The translations under genes and the position numbers were made by a program. A DNA stretch of 20,349 nucleotides from a virus, in the IMG/VR virus record IMGVR_UViG_3300035665_001758, positions 1 through 20,349 of that record, one strand, 5' to 3'. Positions within the stretch are counted from its first letter, which is position 1. Every line of letters begins with the position of its first letter. The notes under the pieces are model-generated. The model made no database searches, was not told where the DNA came from, and saw nothing but the letters and a program-made list of their open reading frames with translations. Positions 3,887 through 20,349 of this stretch are shown here, in pieces.

Positions 3887-4864
3887 TCAGGAAGCGTCCT
3901 GCACCTTCGAGTGAGCGTCGGGGTTGCCGACGACCAAGCACCACTCGGCGAGGATTTCGCCCCGCGTTGCGTCACCCGTTTTCGCGCGTTCCTCGAACTT
4001 GATCGGACGCAGGAACGCCGTCGCCAAGTACTCGGGGTCCAGGCACAGCACCGTGCGGGTCCGCATGTAGCGGTTCAGCATGATCTTGTGCTCGCCGAAG
4101 TCGCTGATGTAGAGGTCAACGCCACCCAGCACCACAGCATTGCTGTTGCGGCCTTGGTTCTGGTTGACGCTCACGCCTGCGAACTTCGACGCACCGCCGA
4201 AGGTGGCGACCTTCCGCTTCAGCGCGGCGCCCATCATGATCACGCTCGGGTCGCCGCCGTCTTCCCATGCGGCCTGCAGCGCTTCCACGAACGCCGTTTC
4301 CGTCAGCGCAGCGGTCGTGCCGTCCACCGGTGCCGTCCAGGCGCCCGCGGCAAAACCAGCAGTCGTGCCGACGCTGTTGGTCGTGGCGGCGAGGACGCGG
4401 TTGCCCGCAATCATCGATTCCAGGCCAGCAGACGAGCGAGCCACCGAGGTCGAGCCAGCAGACGAGCCCTGGTTGCCGACCATTGCGGCTTCGATGTCGC
4501 GCTTCAGTTCGCGGCCACGCTTGGCGATCTGGTACGCGAACTCCTCCTTGCGACCGTACTTGCGCACAGCGTCGGCGGTGCCCGACACCATCACGGTCTT
4601 CCTGGAAATCTGCGTGTAGTTCGACAGCATGGTCGTCGGCGCTGCCGTCGCATACGTCGAATCGTCGCCTTCAACAGCGCGGTTTGCGCCGGTCGCGGCC
4701 AGCGAATCCGTCTGCCACTGGTGATTCACCGCCGAAGCCTTGATGCGCTTCGCCATCGAAAAGGCGGGCGTCTCGGTCGGGGTGATGTTGTAGATGACGT
4801 CCTGCACGTCTTCGGCAAGGCCGATGAGGTCGAAGGTGTCAGTGGTTCCAGCTACTTGTGCCAT
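3887..4864 (-). CDS. Major capsid protein, SU10/DUF5309 type (HK97 fold expected)
   Basis: 325 residues from ATG 4864 (MAQVAGTTDTFDLIGLAEDVQDV); GGAAG stands about 7 nt upstream. The earlier in-frame start at 4936 would only add arginine-rich text from inside the scaffold gene. Family hallmarks are NITPTETPAFSMAKRIKA near the N-terminus, then HQWQTDSLAA, KRGRELKRDIE, a middle with VIMMGAALKRKVATFGG, and VDLYISDFGEHKIMLNRYM followed by VLCLDPEYLATAFLRP. It is expected to assemble the icosahedral shell. It follows a scaffold gene by one base and is followed by a stable hairpin and a strong terminator, which fits a very abundant product. Confidence 0.9.
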   Translation of the reverse strand: MAQVAGTTDTFDLIGLAEDVQDVIYNITPTETPAFSMAKRIKASAVNHQWQTDSLAATGANRAVEGDDSTYATAAPTTMLSNYTQISRKTVMVSGTADAVRKYGRKEEFAYQIAKRGRELKRDIEAAMVGNQGSSAGSTSVARSSAGLESMIAGNRVLAATTNSVGTTAGFAAGAWTAPVDGTTAALTETAFVEALQAAWEDGGDPSVIMMGAALKRKVATFGGASKFAGVSVNQNQGRNSNAVVLGGVDLYISDFGEHKIMLNRYMRTRTVLCLDPEYLATAFLRPIKFEERAKTGDATRGEILAEWCLVVGNPDAHSKVQDAS

Positions 4865-4865
4865 T

Positions 4866-5837
4866 TCATTTCTTCCTTGCTTGCGACCGCGCGAGGAGGG
4901 CCATCGCTGCATCAGCGGTGGAGCCCGTCTTGGCAAGGCGCGTCATTGCGTCCTGTGCCTTCACAGCGGCCTTCGGTTGTGTGGTTGAAGCCCCAGGCTT
5001 CAGCGTTGGTTGGGCCTGCACGACCCGTTTGTCGAGCGTGGACTTGTGCTCACGCATTTGCCGCCCATAGGCAGCGTCCTCGAGGATTTCCACCATCCAG
5101 GGCTCGGTGATGCCGTTCAGGGCTTCAGCCGGCGCACCACGAGCGATGGCGTATTCCGCGAGGGATTTCGCCTTCTCAGGCCCCCAGCCCTTGATCTTCT
5201 GCGAGACAACCTTCTCGGCGTGTTCCTGACGCGCACGGAGAGCCTCTGTTTGCTTCTCCTCTAGCTGTGCGACGTTGGTCTTGTACGTCTGCTCGATCCG
5301 GCCGCGAGCGGCTTGGAGCTGGTTGTATTCCGCATTGAGGCGGGTCAGGGTGTCAGTATCGACACTGTTGATGTCGATCTGCTCCAACTGCGACAGGCGC
5401 CGCGTCACCATCTTGTGATCCGCCAGCAGGTCTGCTTGCGACTCAGCGACAGCGCGCAACTGCGAGATAGCAGCACGTTCGGCGTCAATGGCCTTCCGAG
5501 CGTCGGCAGCCTCCTGAAACTTGCGAGTCGCACCTGCCTCAACCTCTTTGGCCTTGGCTTCGATGCGCTTTGCAACGTCTCGGAGAGCAGCGGGGAGCTT
5601 GATCTTCTCGCCCGCGATGTCGATCTCGGTGTCAGCCTCCGCTTCCGGTTCCGCCTCGGCTTCTTCCGGCTCCGGCGCGTCGGCTTGTTCAGCCTGCTCC
5701 GGTGCGGGTTCTTCCGTGGTTTCCTCTTCGGGCGGCTGCTCGGCCTTGGCCCACTTGCCGAGCAGTTCTTGCACAGCGCCCTCTTCTGAAAGGCCGCTGG
5801 TTCCGACTTCCGTTTCCGGCGTGGTCGTTTCGTTCAT
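4866..5837 (-). CDS. Scaffolding protein
   Basis: 323 residues from ATG 5837. The composition is that of a podovirus scaffold: a very acidic, Glu/Pro-rich stretch at residues about 33-75, a mostly helical, coiled-coil-prone middle (about 85-230, rich in A, E, K, R, Q) and a basic C-terminus ending in RSQARKK that could contact the capsid subunit. It lies immediately before the capsid gene (one base between TGA and ATG), the usual place. Residues GWGPEKAKSLAEYAIARGAP resemble the conserved C-terminal segment of many phage scaffold-like proteins. A weak GGAA precedes the start. Its role would be to guide procapsid assembly and leave or be cleaved afterwards. No protease motif is visible. Confidence 0.8.
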   Translation of the reverse strand: MNETTTPETEVGTSGLSEEGAVQELLGKWAKAEQPPEEETTEEPAPEQAEQADAPEPEEAEAEPEAEADTEIDIAGEKIKLPAALRDVAKRIEAKAKEVEAGATRKFQEAADARKAIDAERAAISQLRAVAESQADLLADHKMVTRRLSQLEQIDINSVDTDTLTRLNAEYNQLQAARGRIEQTYKTNVAQLEEKQTEALRARQEHAEKVVSQKIKGWGPEKAKSLAEYAIARGAPAEALNGITEPWMVEILEDAAYGRQMREHKSTLDKRVVQAQPTLKPGASTTQPKAAVKAQDAMTRLAKTGSTADAAMALLARSQARKK

Positions 5838-9419: not shown

Positions 9420-11759
9420 TCAGTCCTGAAGTTCAGAGTGCGTCGGTTTGCCGTCAGGTCCGCGGACAAGCACGCGCTTGGCCTTTACAGCCTTAGTCAA
9501 CTCGGTCTGATTCGCCGCCAGCGTCTCAAGCGCCTTGGCGACCTGGCCTAGCGCCCTTTCTTCCCCGGCTTCTTCTTTCCGGGGCTTTTCTTTGGCTTGC
9601 TGGGCTTGGGATACACGGTCGGAGTCCTTCTGCGCAGCGTCGTGCGCGATTTGCAGGGCTTGTGACTGGCTCGACTGCTCGGCACTCATGCCAGCAATCT
9701 GCAGCTTGGTGGCGTTGTCCTGATCGGTTTTGTACTTGGTGATCTGCGCTTCGAGGTCGGCCTTTTCGCGGTCGAACTGCAGCTTCATGGCGTCGATTTG
9801 CGCCTGCTGTTCAGCACGAAGGCGCTCTCGCTCTGCATCGCGCACGTCGTTGGACTGCTGCAACTGCAAGTTAGCCTGTAGCTCCTGCATCTTGAGCCCG
9901 AACTCTTCGCGCTTCAGTTGCAGCTCGGCGCCGATCCGCATCTGTTCAAGCTGCGATTGGCTCTGCGCCTTCATTTGCTCAATCTGAGCCTGGCCCTGAA
10001 CCTTTGCCTGCTCCTTCAGCACTTCAGGAGGCGGGCCGGGAGGCTGCGGCGGATTCATAGAGGGGTCTGACCAAAACTCGTTAGGGTCTTTGAAGCCACC
10101 CGCCTGAGTCAGTCGCTTGAGGGTGTTGTAGATCTTGTCCGGGCCGGTCAGACCGAACTGGAGCGCTTGGGTCTGAATGCCCAGCACTTGCATGAGGAAC
10201 GCGATCTGCTGCGGCCTGTCACCAGTGCCGAGGCCGACGCTGATGCTCATGTTTTCGCGCTTCTTCCACGAGCGCGGGTCGACAGGCACCCACTGATTGC
10301 GAAGCTGCACGATCTCAGCCTTGCGCGCGTTCTTCAGCGTCAGGGCGTGGACGACGCGGAACAGGGCCTTCACACCAGTCTCAGCAAAGATGCGGGCGAT
10401 GAACTTGATCCGCTGTTGCGCGGCGCCCATGAGCATTTGCGCGCCCGTGGCGGTCTTGTTCAGCGTGTTGGGGTCAAGCCCCTGGCTCTGCTCGTTGACG
10501 CCCGTCCGCTTCTGGCTGATGCGGTCCATGTACTCCATCATCGGCACAGCGATGTCGCCGGCTGCGGAGTGCGTCAGCGGCATGATCGCGTCGGCCATCG
10601 AAACGCCGGCTTTCTTGCGCACCACGCCGCCCGGACGACTGACGAGCATGTCGTCGAGGTTGATCGCGTCTTCGTCGATAACGTGGCGACCGTTGTTCGC
10701 CAAGTACAGGTTGTCCAGCGAGCCACGGAGCAGCGCGGTCTTGATGCGCTGCAGGTCCATGACCGCTTCAGCCATTGAAAGGCCGGCGTGCTGGTGCGGC
10801 AGAGGCACGGGACACAGCGCGACCAGCGTGACCTGATCGCACTCTTCGTCCGACAGGACCGTCGTGCCGACCACAACAACCCGGCGCAGTTCGGTTAGGC
10901 CGTCGTCGTCGCTGTCGAAGCGAATCCAGACGTTCCGCACCTTCAGGCGACGCGCTGCGGGGCTGCTCTCGTCGCCTTCGCTGTTGCGCCACGGATTCAG
11001 CGCATCGCGGCGCTCGTCTTCCCAATCCTGCGCGCCGTCAGCGTGGTCCGACAGGTCGTCGTCAACCTTGAACCCCTCGTCTCGGAGTTCGCTGATCGTC
11101 TTGTATTCCCAGTATTCGCAGAAGTCGAGGCGGGGATCTTGCAGGTTCAGGCCGCGGGCGTTGTGGCTGATAAGCACACGCTCAGGCGCGACGTTCTCAA
11201 ACTTGACGCAGCCGTAGGACGCGACCCGCTCAATCGTCAGATTGAACGTGAGCCCGTACTCTGTCGGCACCTGCTCGGCTTCGACAATCGAAACCGACGA
11301 GTCTTGCAGCATCAGCGCGGCTTCATCCTCTGACAGCCCCTGATACTTTTCCTTCGTCCGGTCCTCGCGGTCTTCGTAGTAGGCAATGACGTAGCCCACT
11401 TTCTGAAGCAGCGCGTCATGACTCCAGCCGTACCACGTCGTGAACCAGTCGTTCTTCTCGGTGATGATGTGGTTGACAAACTCCGTCTCTTGCTCGGCGG
11501 CCTTCACGTCCTCCGGGCCGGTCGGGCTGAACATCACCACCTGATCGCCGCCGCAGAAGATGTCGGCTAGTTGCGGCTTGATCCATTCCACCGTGTCCCA
11601 CACGTCGCGGGAGATGACGGCCGAGCGCCCCTCTACCTCGTTGCCAAGCGGCTTGCCGAGGTAGTAATCAAGCGCAGTCGAGCGCTCGTCGCTCAAGTCC
11701 CCGTAGGAACTGGCGAGCGTTTCGTGGCGCTCAATGGCTGCGAGAAGGGTGTCGTTCAC
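9420..11759 (-). CDS. Portal protein, P22-like/podovirus type, with long coiled-coil C-terminus
   Basis: 779 residues from GTG 11759, overlapping the previous stop as GTGA. The N-terminal MNDTLLAAIERHETLASSYG, then ALDYYLGKPLGNEVEGRSAV and DTVEWIKPQLADIFCGGD, is the recognised opening of large podovirus portals. The core includes GTTVLSDEECDQVTLVALCP, LLRGSLDNLYLANNGR and RPGGVVRKKAG, followed by GLDPNTLNKTATGAQMLM (the portal wing/stem segment). From about residue 575 it is Pro-rich and then a long Gln/Glu/Lys coiled coil to about 720, like the helical barrel of P22-type portals. It would form the dodecameric DNA gate at one head vertex. The size (779 aa) fits the large-portal class. Confidence 0.9.
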   Translation of the reverse strand: MNDTLLAAIERHETLASSYGDLSDERSTALDYYLGKPLGNEVEGRSAVISRDVWDTVEWIKPQLADIFCGGDQVVMFSPTGPEDVKAAEQETEFVNHIITEKNDWFTTWYGWSHDALLQKVGYVIAYYEDREDRTKEKYQGLSEDEAALMLQDSSVSIVEAEQVPTEYGLTFNLTIERVASYGCVKFENVAPERVLISHNARGLNLQDPRLDFCEYWEYKTISELRDEGFKVDDDLSDHADGAQDWEDERRDALNPWRNSEGDESSPAARRLKVRNVWIRFDSDDDGLTELRRVVVVGTTVLSDEECDQVTLVALCPVPLPHQHAGLSMAEAVMDLQRIKTALLRGSLDNLYLANNGRHVIDEDAINLDDMLVSRPGGVVRKKAGVSMADAIMPLTHSAAGDIAVPMMEYMDRISQKRTGVNEQSQGLDPNTLNKTATGAQMLMGAAQQRIKFIARIFAETGVKALFRVVHALTLKNARKAEIVQLRNQWVPVDPRSWKKRENMSISVGLGTGDRPQQIAFLMQVLGIQTQALQFGLTGPDKIYNTLKRLTQAGGFKDPNEFWSDPSMNPPQPPGPPPEVLKEQAKVQGQAQIEQMKAQSQSQLEQMRIGAELQLKREEFGLKMQELQANLQLQQSNDVRDAERERLRAEQQAQIDAMKLQFDREKADLEAQITKYKTDQDNATKLQIAGMSAEQSSQSQALQIAHDAAQKDSDRVSQAQQAKEKPRKEEAGEERALGQVAKALETLAANQTELTKAVKAKRVLVRGPDGKPTHSELQD

Positions 11760-14996: not shown

Positions 14997-15790
14997 ACGG
15001 TCCTCACGGCTTGTTTAACGCGCGCCAGCAGCTCGGCAGGCGCTTTGGTGGCCTTGTGCTCTCGCTGGCGCTGTAGCTCGGCCTCGGCAAGGGCTAGGCC
15101 GGTCGGTGGTGGCGCGTCCACACGCTGCGCCGGCAGTTCATCGGGCTTCAGCCATGCAGCTTCCAGCCCCTGCGAACCCCGCCGACACCAGACGCGCAGA
15201 AACGCCTCCAGGGTCATGCCTGCCTTGCCTGCCTCGGTCACTGCCCCGTCGAGCGTGGTCTGCGTCACCGGGGCGCGCTTGGCTTTGCGTAGGTGCAGCC
15301 AGTCGGTCCAAACCTGTTCGGCAACATCAGGAGGACGCGCCACCGGCGCTGCGCGCTTGCGCGCCTTATCGCCTTCGTCTACGTCTCCGAATACGAATAC
15401 GTCTAGGCGCGCATCCGCTTCTCCCTTGCTTGGCACTTGCGTAGCATCTGCTGCGCATTCACTTGCAGGCGATGGGAACTTGCTTTCCTTTGCCCGCAAC
15501 TGCTGGCGGAAGTCGAGCAGTTCTAGGTAACGCTCCCCGTCCTTAGCCGGGTACACCCTTACAAGGGCCGCTTCGACCAGCACGGTCAGCCACTTCCCTA
15601 CGTCCGAGTCGGAAACCTTGCTTAACTGCCGCGGGTAGCAGGCCGCCCGCAGCATTCCGTGGTCGGCGTAGTACCGACCGAAGTCATCAACGACAGACAT
15701 CAGCCGCCGATAGAACACCTCTTCTGCCCAGCCCAGGCGCGCAAGGCGCGGGCTTGTCAGGATGCCTTCGCGGAGGATGCGGTTAGGCAC
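14993..15790 (-). CDS. Replication-initiation-like protein (winged helix plus C-terminal phage replication domain)
   Basis: 265 residues from GTG 15790, preceded by GAGGG with an 8-nt spacer. The start gives MPNRILREGILTSPRLARLG, the usual opening of this group. Residues about 1-95 form a winged-helix-like module with FYRRLMSVVDDFGRYYADHG. A charged linker of about 50 residues follows, and then EQVWTDWLHLRKAKRAPVTQ and LEAFLRVWCRRGSQGLEAAW, a C-terminal piece common in phage O-like replication proteins. It probably marks the origin and recruits the host helicase or the phage helicase encoded upstream. The linker region at DNA level has a few short repeats (15371-15404) that could be a weak origin candidate. 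Confidence 0.65.
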   Translation of the reverse strand: MPNRILREGILTSPRLARLGWAEEVFYRRLMSVVDDFGRYYADHGMLRAACYPRQLSKVSDSDVGKWLTVLVEAALVRVYPAKDGERYLELLDFRQQLRAKESKFPSPASECAADATQVPSKGEADARLDVFVFGDVDEGDKARKRAAPVARPPDVAEQVWTDWLHLRKAKRAPVTQTTLDGAVTEAGKAGMTLEAFLRVWCRRGSQGLEAAWLKPDELPAQRVDAPPPTGLALAEAELQRQREHKATKAPAELLARVKQAVRTV

Positions 15791-16766
15791 TCTCGGCGCC
15801 CTCGAAGTCGAATGCTTCGGAGGTTTCGATGTCCTTCCGGCCAGCCGCCGCCATCTGCACATTCTTCACGGCCTGGCGGTAATAGCTCGGCTTCAGTTCA
15901 GCCCCCATGCCGCGCCGACCAAGCAAAACCGGGCTGTAGACTTCGGAGCCGACGCCCATGAACGGGGTAAAGACTGTTTCTCCCGGGTTGCTGAACAGTT
16001 CGACGCAACGGTCGATCACGTCGAGCTGCAGCGGGTGAACGTGCTTTTCGTCTTCGCCATCCCGCGCCTCACGGAACGGAAGCACGCGGTTCATCCGCAC
16101 GTCGTCCCACATGCAATCCGCATACTGGCGCCAAATCCAGTGCGACCAGCGGTTTTCTGTTTGCTTGCCCGTCCAGCCGCGGTAAGGCAGCAAGTCAGAC
16201 GGCGGCACGCGCTCCCCGGCGTAGTCGAAAAGTCCTTCTGGATGGCGCACCGGTACCGGGTTCGTGCCGGCCCTGCGGAACGTCAGCAGCATGTCGCCGC
16301 TTGCCACCCCGCAGTCGATGCTATCGGCGCACAGAGAAGCATGTGCGAGGTTCTTCTGCATGGTCCGCAGGCGCACCGCGAGAGGCTCTTTCCAGATCAT
16401 GCGCCGGCCGGTGTAGCGCCAGCCCTCGCGCTCGTGCAGTCGGATGATGTCGCCGGGAAAGTCGATCAGCGAATCGGTGCCGCTATTGCTGCGCGGCACG
16501 TCCATGCAGTGAACCGCCGTCACCCGGCCCGACATAGTGATCCTGGCCAGCTCGCGCACCACAAAAGCGTAGTGCTCAAAAAACGAATCGTAGTCGTCGC
16601 AGTTCGACAGATCGCGCTCACTGCTGCTGTAGTGATACAGCCCGCCAAACGGTGGCGAGTAGATCGAGTGGTGAACGCTGCCCGTAGGCAGAGCCTGCAT
16701 GACTTCCATGCAGTCGCCGTTAAAAATGGCGAACTTGTCGGTAACGAGTTGGTCAATCACAGCCAT
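15783..16766 (-). CDS. DNA (cytosine-N4/adenine-N6) methyltransferase, beta class
   Basis: 327 residues from ATG 16766, overlapping the helicase stop by 10 nt, with GGAG upstream. Motif IV is SPPF (37-40), which is more common in N4-cytosine than in N6-adenine enzymes. Motif I comes late, VFTPFMGVGS (265-274), giving the IV-to-I order of the beta class (PF01555 type). The N-terminal IFNGDCMEVMQALPTGSVH is a typical target-side strand. No restriction partner is encoded nearby, so this is an orphan phage methylase. It could protect phage DNA from host restriction or mark replicating DNA. A later, hydroxymethyl-type modification role is not supported. Confidence 0.88.
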   Translation of the reverse strand: MAVIDQLVTDKFAIFNGDCMEVMQALPTGSVHHSIYSPPFGGLYHYSSSERDLSNCDDYDSFFEHYAFVVRELARITMSGRVTAVHCMDVPRSNSGTDSLIDFPGDIIRLHEREGWRYTGRRMIWKEPLAVRLRTMQKNLAHASLCADSIDCGVASGDMLLTFRRAGTNPVPVRHPEGLFDYAGERVPPSDLLPYRGWTGKQTENRWSHWIWRQYADCMWDDVRMNRVLPFREARDGEDEKHVHPLQLDVIDRCVELFSNPGETVFTPFMGVGSEVYSPVLLGRRGMGAELKPSYYRQAVKNVQMAAAGRKDIETSEAFDFEGAESA

Positions 16767-19218: not shown

Positions 19219-19463
19219 GCTTGCTCTCCTGTACGGGCGGACATCACCCGCTCGGACGATGCGTGCAGGGGATGGTCTGCGGCGGCCGGGGCTGCGACAG
19301 TCTCGGCATGGATGAACTTGTCGCCCTGCTCGCACACGCTCAGGTAAAACGGGCTGGCCGGTCCGCTTTTCGCCAGCCATCGGGCGCACTGGTCGCGCCG
19401 TTGGCAGCGGTCAGCGGTGAACGGCTTGCGACCCGCGCAGCGGGCTACGTCGAGCGGCAGCAT
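19209..19463 (-). CDS. Small Cys-rich protein after cro
   Basis: 84 residues from ATG 19463, which shares the A of the cro stop (TGATG); a longer form from 19514 would overlap cro by 52 nt. The front half holds four Cys in the pattern C9-x10-C20-x5-C26-x17-C44 within VARCAGRKPFTADRCQRRDQ, CARWL and LSVCEQGDKF. This suggests a small metal-binding protein of a type common behind cro in phages of betaproteobacteria. The tail is Ala-rich and unstructured. Its stop overlaps the HNH start by 10 nt. Function unknown. Confidence 0.6.
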   Translation of the reverse strand: MLPLDVARCAGRKPFTADRCQRRDQCARWLAKSGPASPFYLSVCEQGDKFIHAETVAAPAAADHPLHASSERVMSARTGEQAWP

Positions 19464-19654
19464 CAGGCGACAGCCTTCGACGTGACCCCCGGGCGACCTT
19501 GAGCCATGCGCCACAGCGCAGCCTGCACACGGTCAGCAATCCGCGGCGGCAAGTCCTCGGGCCACTGCGCGATTGCCTGCACGGACACCCCGACAGCAGC
19601 CGCAGCCGCCGCAGGCGTACCCCCCAAAAGTCGGATAGCTTCGGTCTTGGTCAT
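19463..19654 (-). CDS. cro: Cro-like repressor (YdaS/Cro family)
   Basis: 63 residues from ATG 19654 (MTKTEAIRLLGGTPAAAAAA). The small HTH is AAAAAAVGVSVQAIAQWPED (residues 15-34), then LPPRIADRVQAALWRMAQ, as in short Cro/YdaS proteins. The recognition helix GVSVQAI-Q is nearly the same as that of the divergent repressor, so both should bind the same operators. A promoter with -10 ATTAAA (plus-strand reading, 19660-19665) ends 5 nt before the ATG, so the mRNA likely begins at or next to the ATG (leaderless). It should start the leftward early transcript and shut down the repressor. Confidence 0.85.
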   Translation of the reverse strand: MTKTEAIRLLGGTPAAAAAAVGVSVQAIAQWPEDLPPRIADRVQAALWRMAQGRPGVTSKAVA

Positions 19655-19659
19655 GCGCC

Positions 19660-19688
19660 ATTAAAGCATGCTTCCCGAATGCGCGCAA
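19660..19688 (-). promoter_or_regulatory. Early leftward promoter (PR-like, drives cro)
   Basis: On the minus strand TTGCGC (19688-19683), then a 17-nt spacer, then TTTAAT (19665-19660). The operator AAGCATGCTT overlaps the last bases of the spacer and the -10, and a second copy overlaps the -35. It closely matches the rightward promoter at 20178-20206 in -35, spacer length and operator position. The predicted start falls at the ATG of cro. Confidence 0.75.
19664..19673. promoter_or_regulatory. Operator copy 1 (AAGCATGCTT)
   Basis: Perfect 10-bp palindrome overlapping the -10 and spacer of the leftward promoter. The same word is exact at 20193-20202 and nearly exact at 19687-19696. Likely binding site of both the repressor and Cro. 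Confidence 0.8.
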
Positions 19689-19696
19689 GCATGCTC
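19687..19696. promoter_or_regulatory. Operator copy 2 (AAGCATGCTC)
   Basis: One mismatch from the palindrome, centred 23 bp from copy 1, which is about two helical turns and suits cooperative binding. It overlaps the -35 of the cro promoter. Confidence 0.75.
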
Positions 19697-19710
19697 AGCG
19701 GGCACCCTGT

Positions 19711-19716
19711 GAAAAT
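19711..19716 (+). promoter_or_regulatory. Weak repressor-maintenance promoter (-10 candidate GAAAAT)
   Basis: A GAAAAT -10-like hexamer lies 7 nt before the repressor ATG (19724), with no clear -35 and no Shine-Dalgarno between them. A start there would give a leaderless repressor mRNA, as for lambda cI from PRM. A -35 region near 19688-19693 would lie inside operator copy 2, which fits activation by a bound repressor. Confidence 0.4.
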
Positions 19717-19719
19717 TCC

Positions 19720-19729
19720 AAGCATGAGC
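19720..19729. promoter_or_regulatory. Operator-like half-site overlapping the repressor start codon
   Basis: AAGCATGAGC keeps the AAGCATG half of the operator and covers the repressor ATG (19724-19726). It is centred 33 bp, about three turns, from copy 2. It could be a weak third operator for self-repression, or chance. Confidence 0.45.
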
Positions 19730-20134
19730 TTTCAGGACCGGCTGCAAGCGGCGATTGCCCGTGCCAACGCCACGCCTAAGACCCTCGCAAGCGCGCTGGG
19801 TGTTAGCGTGCAGGCTATTGGTCAGGTGCTGAGCGGCTCAACTAGAGCACTGACAGCAGAGAACTGCGTCAAGGCGGCGCTGTTCCTCGGCGTCAGAACT
19901 GAGTGGCTCGCGGCTGACCTAGGGGATATGGCCCTAGAGAAGGCTGAGCGAGAAATGTCACTGTCACCGCAAGAGCGCGACCTGATCGTCGCCCTGCGCG
20001 TCCTGCCCGAAGCTGAACGGCTGAAAGTCACCGCATCGGTGATGCACCAGGCACGCGCCCAACTCGACCAGCTATCCGCGCTGATCGACCGCAACCCCCC
20101 GACCCCCGGGACTGTCATTCCCTTGCGTCGGTAA
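19724..20134 (+). CDS. cI-like repressor, HTH type without a peptidase domain
   Basis: 136 residues from ATG 19724; a 75-codon longer reading would run back through cro and its promoter and is rejected. The HTH is at residues about 18-40 (TPKTLASALGVSVQAIGQVL), followed by SGSTRALTAENCVKAALFLG. The C-terminal 65 residues (SLSPQERDLIVALRVLPEAE, then LKVTASVMHQARAQLDQLSA) are helical and probably dimerise. There is no LexA/S24 autocleavage domain, so RecA-driven self-cleavage is not expected; induction may need an antirepressor or other signal. Its operators flank it on both sides. Confidence 0.85.
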   Translation: MSFQDRLQAAIARANATPKTLASALGVSVQAIGQVLSGSTRALTAENCVKAALFLGVRTEWLAADLGDMALEKAEREMSLSPQERDLIVALRVLPEAERLKVTASVMHQARAQLDQLSALIDRNPPTPGTVIPLRR

Positions 20135-20177
20135 CCCTCCGTTGCCTAAGTAGTTTCCCTAGGGATGCAAAGAATAC

Positions 20178-20206
20178 TTGCGCCTTTTTGTGAAGCATGC
20201 TTAAAT
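20178..20206 (+). promoter_or_regulatory. Rightward promoter with repressor operator over the -10
   Basis: TTGCGC (20178-20183), 17-nt spacer, TTAAAT (20201-20206). The spacer ends in GAAGCATGC, just as in the cro promoter, and an exact AAGCATGCTT spans into the -10. It lies 44 nt past the repressor stop and would give a leader of about 50 nt before the next ATG (20264). Confidence 0.75.
20193..20202. promoter_or_regulatory. Operator copy at the second promoter (AAGCATGCTT)
   Basis: Exact match to operator copy 1, 525 bp away from it, placed at the same point relative to its promoter -10. A bound repressor should block this promoter. Confidence 0.8.
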
Positions 20207-20263: not shown

Positions 20264-20349
20264 ATGAACGGCTACGCGATCTTCGGCCAGCCCCCGCAGT
20301 TCCACAACACCCGCGGCGGCGCTGGCTACATCAGCGCCGGCAAGCCCAG
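20264..20349 (+). CDS. Start of a rightward repressor-controlled gene (partial)
   Basis: ATG 20264, with GAAGGA about 8 nt upstream, opens a frame to the window edge (28 codons; begins MNGYAIFGQPPQFHNTRGG). I do not recognise the product; the visible piece is Gly-rich and non-helical. The operator-overlapped promoter upstream shows it is switched with the lytic genes, so it may be an antirepressor, excision or other early lytic function. The rest lies outside the window. Confidence 0.6.
   Translation, partial: MNGYAIFGQPPQFHNTRGGAGYISAGKP

Follow-up and report, generated by a model that had tools for sequence, protein, structure and literature searches.

The window analysed here, a 20,349-nucleotide stretch of viral DNA, carries near its right-hand end a cro-like gene and a cI-like repressor gene that diverge from each other, with the first gene of a rightward early operon beyond the latter. 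Four predicted operators and two predicted early promoters lie in the gaps on either side of the repressor gene. The features are, by position:

19463 to 19654, minus strand: cro-like gene, 63 aa; matches P22_Cro at E 8e-7, just under the Pfam curated cut-off, and a PHROG transcriptional regulator family
19660 to 19665, minus strand: predicted -10 element of the cro promoter, TTTAAT, after a 17-bp spacer
19664 to 19673: predicted operator OR1, AAGCATGCTT; shares bases with the -10 of the cro promoter; top matrix score, placed alike in 22 of 23 relatives
19683 to 19688, minus strand: predicted -35 element of the cro promoter, TTGCGC; TTG kept in relatives
19687 to 19696: predicted operator OR2, AAGCATGCTC, one mismatch to AAGCATGCTT; shares bases with the cro -35 and lies 23 bp away from OR1
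19720 to 19731: tentative degenerate third operator or half-site, AAGC-ATGA-GCTT, covering the cI start codon; the half is AAGCATGA
19724 to 20134, plus strand: cI-like repressor gene, 136 aa, HTH_3, without an S24 peptidase domain
20170 to 20179: predicted operator OL2, AAGAATACTT; shares bases with the rightward -35; matrix rank 3 in the window
20178 to 20183, plus strand: predicted -35 element of the rightward early promoter, TTGCGC
20193 to 20202: predicted operator OL1, AAGCATGCTT; shares bases with the rightward -10; distance to OL2 23 bp
20201 to 20206, plus strand: predicted -10 element of the rightward early promoter, TTAAAT, after a 17-bp spacer
20264 to 20349, plus strand: opening gene of the rightward early operon, truncated where the window ends

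The repressor gene thus lies between two early promoters, as in lambda and P22. The leftward operon runs from cro through an HNH protein, a helicase, a methylase and a replication protein to the head genes, while the rightward operon, followed on a longer contig (L003), encodes a Sak-like annealing protein (E 1.6e-4, just under the cut-off), an HNH/YbcO-like nuclease and NinB. A 42.4-kb contig of the identical virus, which matches the window over 9.6 kb without a difference, carries a tyrosine integrase. The head genes are of the SU10 type (3887-4936 and 9420-11759, both on the minus strand; portal E 5e-188, major capsid E 2e-94) and co-occur in this one phage with the integrase and the lambdoid switch. 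At 136 aa, CI belongs to the size class of an HTH plus a short tail and has no C-terminal S24 domain for self-cleavage and oligomerisation; across the 42.4-kb contig no S24 peptidase was matched and one narrow LexA-box pattern was not found. In the predicted CI model the HTH resembles those of 434 Cro and P22 C2. A Foldseek search with this model returned HTH matches, none with a significant E-value (best 5.9e-3), and a sequence search of the PDB gave chance-level matches only.

A sequence scan of the window locates AAGCATGCTT exactly at 19664-19673 and 20193-20202. The first-pass annotation had listed these two copies together with a one-mismatch copy at 19687, which differs from the word at one outer base, and a half at 19720, with spacings of 23 and 33 bp; all four positions and both spacings are borne out by the sequence. 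As an operator set the list needs revision: 19664, 19687 and 20193 stand, the half at 19720 is weak, and a fourth site at 20170 had been overlooked. Its inclusion gives two pairs of sites, 19664/19687 and 20170/20193, and in both the distance is exactly 23 bp. A symmetric weight matrix trained on the sites of relatives, with the window left out, gives its three highest scores anywhere in the window to 19664, 20193 and 20170 and puts 19687 in fifth place. The half at 19720 scores -5.3 and ranks 137; on this matrix we reject it as a full third operator, and it may at most be a degenerate one. The same annotation had proposed that a shared word controls three promoter sites of the switch. This proposal survives in outline: one word is present at the divergent cro and cI promoters and at a predicted third promoter downstream of cI, in a layout that is that of lambda and P22 and is kept in relatives. 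For OR3 control of the repressor promoter the window offers only the degenerate half-site at 19720, and most relatives have a third site.

Both pairs are built into a single promoter design, TTGCGC-N17-TT[TA]AAT, predicted to read leftward into cro in one case and rightward in the other. In either promoter the last bases of the distal operator are the TT of the -35 (TTG), and those of the proximal operator are the TT in the -10. The hexamers match the consensus at 8/12 and 7/12 positions in the two promoters, and a generic sigma-70 promoter scan reported no site at its threshold. The cro ATG (19654) sits where transcription would start, which suggests a nearly leaderless cro mRNA; leaderless mRNAs have been reported for paaR2 and lambda cI (PMC8630535).

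The arrangement is conserved. Nine viral relatives of CI were compared (HTH identity 51-54%), and every one has two sites 23 bp apart in the cro-cI gap and a further pair downstream of cI. As an out-of-sample set we added, after these nine, 14 prophages of named Burkholderiales genomes. The cro-cI pair is present in 13 of the 14, spaced by 23 bp in 12 and by 21 bp in the other, and pairs downstream of cI were seen in seven within the DNA examined; one prophage (L225) looks identical to a member of the first set (L005), so the two sets are not fully independent. The cro promoter, TTGNNN-N17-TTTAAT, is fixed relative to the operators in all except L221 and L222. Most relatives have a third site just before cI, mostly AAGTANNCTT at about 21 bp from OR2 (34 bp in L233). 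In two Pigmentiphaga litoralis prophages (L223 and L224) the same operators and HTH go with a CI of 288 residues, so the operator class is independent of the C-terminal domain; judging from the sequences, the C-terminal half of CI is exchanged here and the operator code retained. DNA searches of phage records, near and distant, with the immunity region of the window gave no match, nor did a DNA search with that of L007. Relatives of the helicase with up to 82% identity (besides contigs that are 94-100% identical) mostly have nothing recognisable as this type of CI/Cro in the helicase's neighbourhood and are therefore of no use as footprints. HK639, YP3, UPF_BP1 and Mcat13 were considered as operator relatives and rejected: the HTH family is common to them, the operator word absent.

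We also scanned IMG/VR for pairs of AGCATGCT with 12-18 bp between the two copies. Among the matches listed, 69/110 non-identical cases are 23 bp apart, a figure that is not a tally of independent events, since many of these pairs come from one Pseudomonas-type family; a control palindrome of like composition gave 4/56 at 23 bp and favours 21 and 24 instead. Most of the listed 23-bp pairs include, on one strand, a promoter of the form TTG...N17...TTNAAT, and many of those inspected sit between CI-like and Cro-like genes.

The spacings of 23 and 33 bp had been taken as a sign of cooperative binding, with CI dimers on one face of the DNA setting the distance. The 23 bp does resemble the OR spacing of P22, whose repressor, a well-studied member of the lambdoid group, is described as binding OR1 and OR2 cooperatively (PMC3317979). 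Yet 23 bp is also the distance between the starts of the -35 and -10 hexamers (6 + 17 bp) in both promoters, so that the spacing by itself is no evidence for cooperativity: promoter geometry alone can account for it. Moreover, 23 bp amounts to 2.2 helical turns, the third site at +33 is weak by the matrix, CI has no C-terminal domain, the related short repressor GfoR is a dimer in solution (PMC3121763), and the 933W repressor has been reported to bind non-cooperatively. Cooperative binding may occur, but we regard it as an unlikely origin of the distance. Offered tentatively, and less likely than not, is the possibility that in this large class of phages operator pair and promoter form one composite element, in which the 17-bp spacer sets the 23 bp and a minimal repressor lacking an oligomerisation domain would act by simple double occupancy. 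Were this so, many otherwise unrelated Burkholderiales and Pseudomonas phages would have one operator code, possibly with cross-immunity.

The two putative regulators have closely similar recognition helices, VQAIGQV in CI and VQAIAQW in Cro, a near-identity that the first-pass annotation had already seen. We compared 15 unique CI/Cro helix pairs from 71 loci, 46 of which have one same pair, at four positions presumed to contact DNA as in the 434 and P22 repressors. Within phages 3.0/4 of these positions are identical vs 2.45/4 between phages (p ~0.0004 by permutation, ancestry uncorrected). At one locus (L129, near 3646) the stretch PSAVTMWGDKIPLLR is present unchanged in both CI and Cro, which would fit partial copying of either gene into its neighbour; gene conversion or an assembly artefact is possible.

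Very probably, then, this is a temperate, lambdoid-type immunity region in which AAGCATGCTT, of the class AAG-N4-CTT, is the operator read by both CI and Cro, two copies to each early promoter. The sites, the paired promoter design and its conservation, the layout, the matching helices and the lack of a self-cleavage domain are read from the sequences; operator binding by the two proteins, and repression, are inferred. In a lysogen CI would occupy the sites over the -35 and -10 and close both early promoters; because the operators end in the TTG of the -35 and in the -10, a bound dimer is expected to block RNA polymerase. In lytic growth Cro would take over these sites as its own targets and, at a later stage, lower early transcription. 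With no cleavage domain in CI, induction is likely driven by an antirepressor, instead of RecA-stimulated cleavage, by analogy with the DicA/Rem and Gifsy systems (PMC10448788, PMC3121763).

An operator function has to be weighed against a word that is merely promoter-associated, either as a conserved part of the promoter or as the site of a host regulator. The word's ends furnish both the -35 TTG and the -10 TT, and the promoter could drive part of the conservation. Promoter needs, however, leave a 10-bp palindrome unexplained; on the 42.4-kb contig the word is confined to the immunity region, with 19664, 19687 and 20193 as the only sites at one mismatch or fewer; most relatives have the extra AAGTANNCTT site near the cI start; and the word matches the annotated C2 operators of P22. 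We consider this explanation improbable.

By count alone the word is only moderately convincing: the window has three copies of AAGCATGCTT with at most one mismatch vs 0.57 expected, and at least three occurred in 2/100 shuffles. A repeated palindromic 10-mer somewhere in the window is frequent (249/300 shuffles), but a perfect 10-bp palindrome common to both gaps flanking the repressor gene arose in 1/20,000 dinucleotide shuffles, in a test framed after the word had been seen; the placement is thus the significant part. The phage also encodes an N6/N4 DNA methylase (15783-16766, minus strand), and the operators contain a GCATGC core. That the palindromes arose by chance, or serve some other purpose, for instance as sites of methylation or restriction with this core, is nevertheless scarcely credible given their rare sharing between the two gaps and the retention in relatives of placement, spacing and the outer AA/TT bases, beyond GCATGC alone.

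Among known systems, P22 is similar in its operators of the AAG-N4-CTT class, in a repressor gene set between two early promoters and in its P22_Cro-type Cro. Its annotated OR operators, AAGTCATCTT, AAGATTCCTT and AAGTGTTCTT, fit AAG-N4-CTT, with OR1 and OR2 23 bp apart, and its helices, NVAISQW and DAAVSQW, have A and Q at the same places as those of the window. It differs in that C2 has 216 aa and is RecA-cleavable, vs the 136-aa CI, in having three annotated operators per side where the window has two good ones, and in the central bases. In DicA/DicC of the cryptic prophage Qin and GfoR/GtgR of Gifsy, by contrast, the likeness lies in a short, non-cleavable repressor (135-136 aa) divergent from cro and in a further regulated promoter that follows the repressor gene. 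CI fits this short DicA/GfoR class (about 135-150 aa, HTH and a short helical tail): the alignment of CI with DicA spans 123 residues, takes in the C-terminal LSP-E..LPE segment and has 23% identity (E = 2e-7 when the two sequences were compared alone). The dic region has GTTAGTCATAACTAAC-type repeats, another operator word, and BLASTP found no match between DicC and Cro. PaaR2/YdaS of CP-933P is alike in that repressor and Cro-like protein bind overlapping operators and in having a leaderless repressor mRNA and a PL/OL-like site (PMC8630535); it differs in its operator consensus of GTTTAGTAA palindromes and in the toxin-antitoxin pair after the repressor gene.

The predicted operators are thus P22-like, the putative repressor DicA/Gifsy-like and the layout lambdoid. 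In the titles and abstracts of the open-access literature we found no relevant description of AAGCATGCTT, GCATGC or AGCATGCT in a phage switch, and we view the locus as a well-supported, previously undescribed example of a known switch type, not new in principle. For a group of Burkholderiales phages and prophages, on whose switch the open-access literature searched yielded no description, it provides an operator prediction and an independent set to test it on. The weight matrix locates sites in other prophages, cross-immunity between unrelated phages becomes predictable, and promoter-forced spacing is separated from spacing chosen for cooperativity.

A further likeness comes from Pseudomonas phage vB_PaeP_YA3 (L217; sites at 2431, 2465 and 3295), where AAGCATACTT and AACCATGCTT occupy the cro-cI gap and AAGCATGCTT follows cI on its downstream side. 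It differs in the size of CI, annotated at 711 bp and hence about 236 aa, and in its first two sites being 34 bp apart, a spacing that resembles those of 33-34 bp in the window and in L233.
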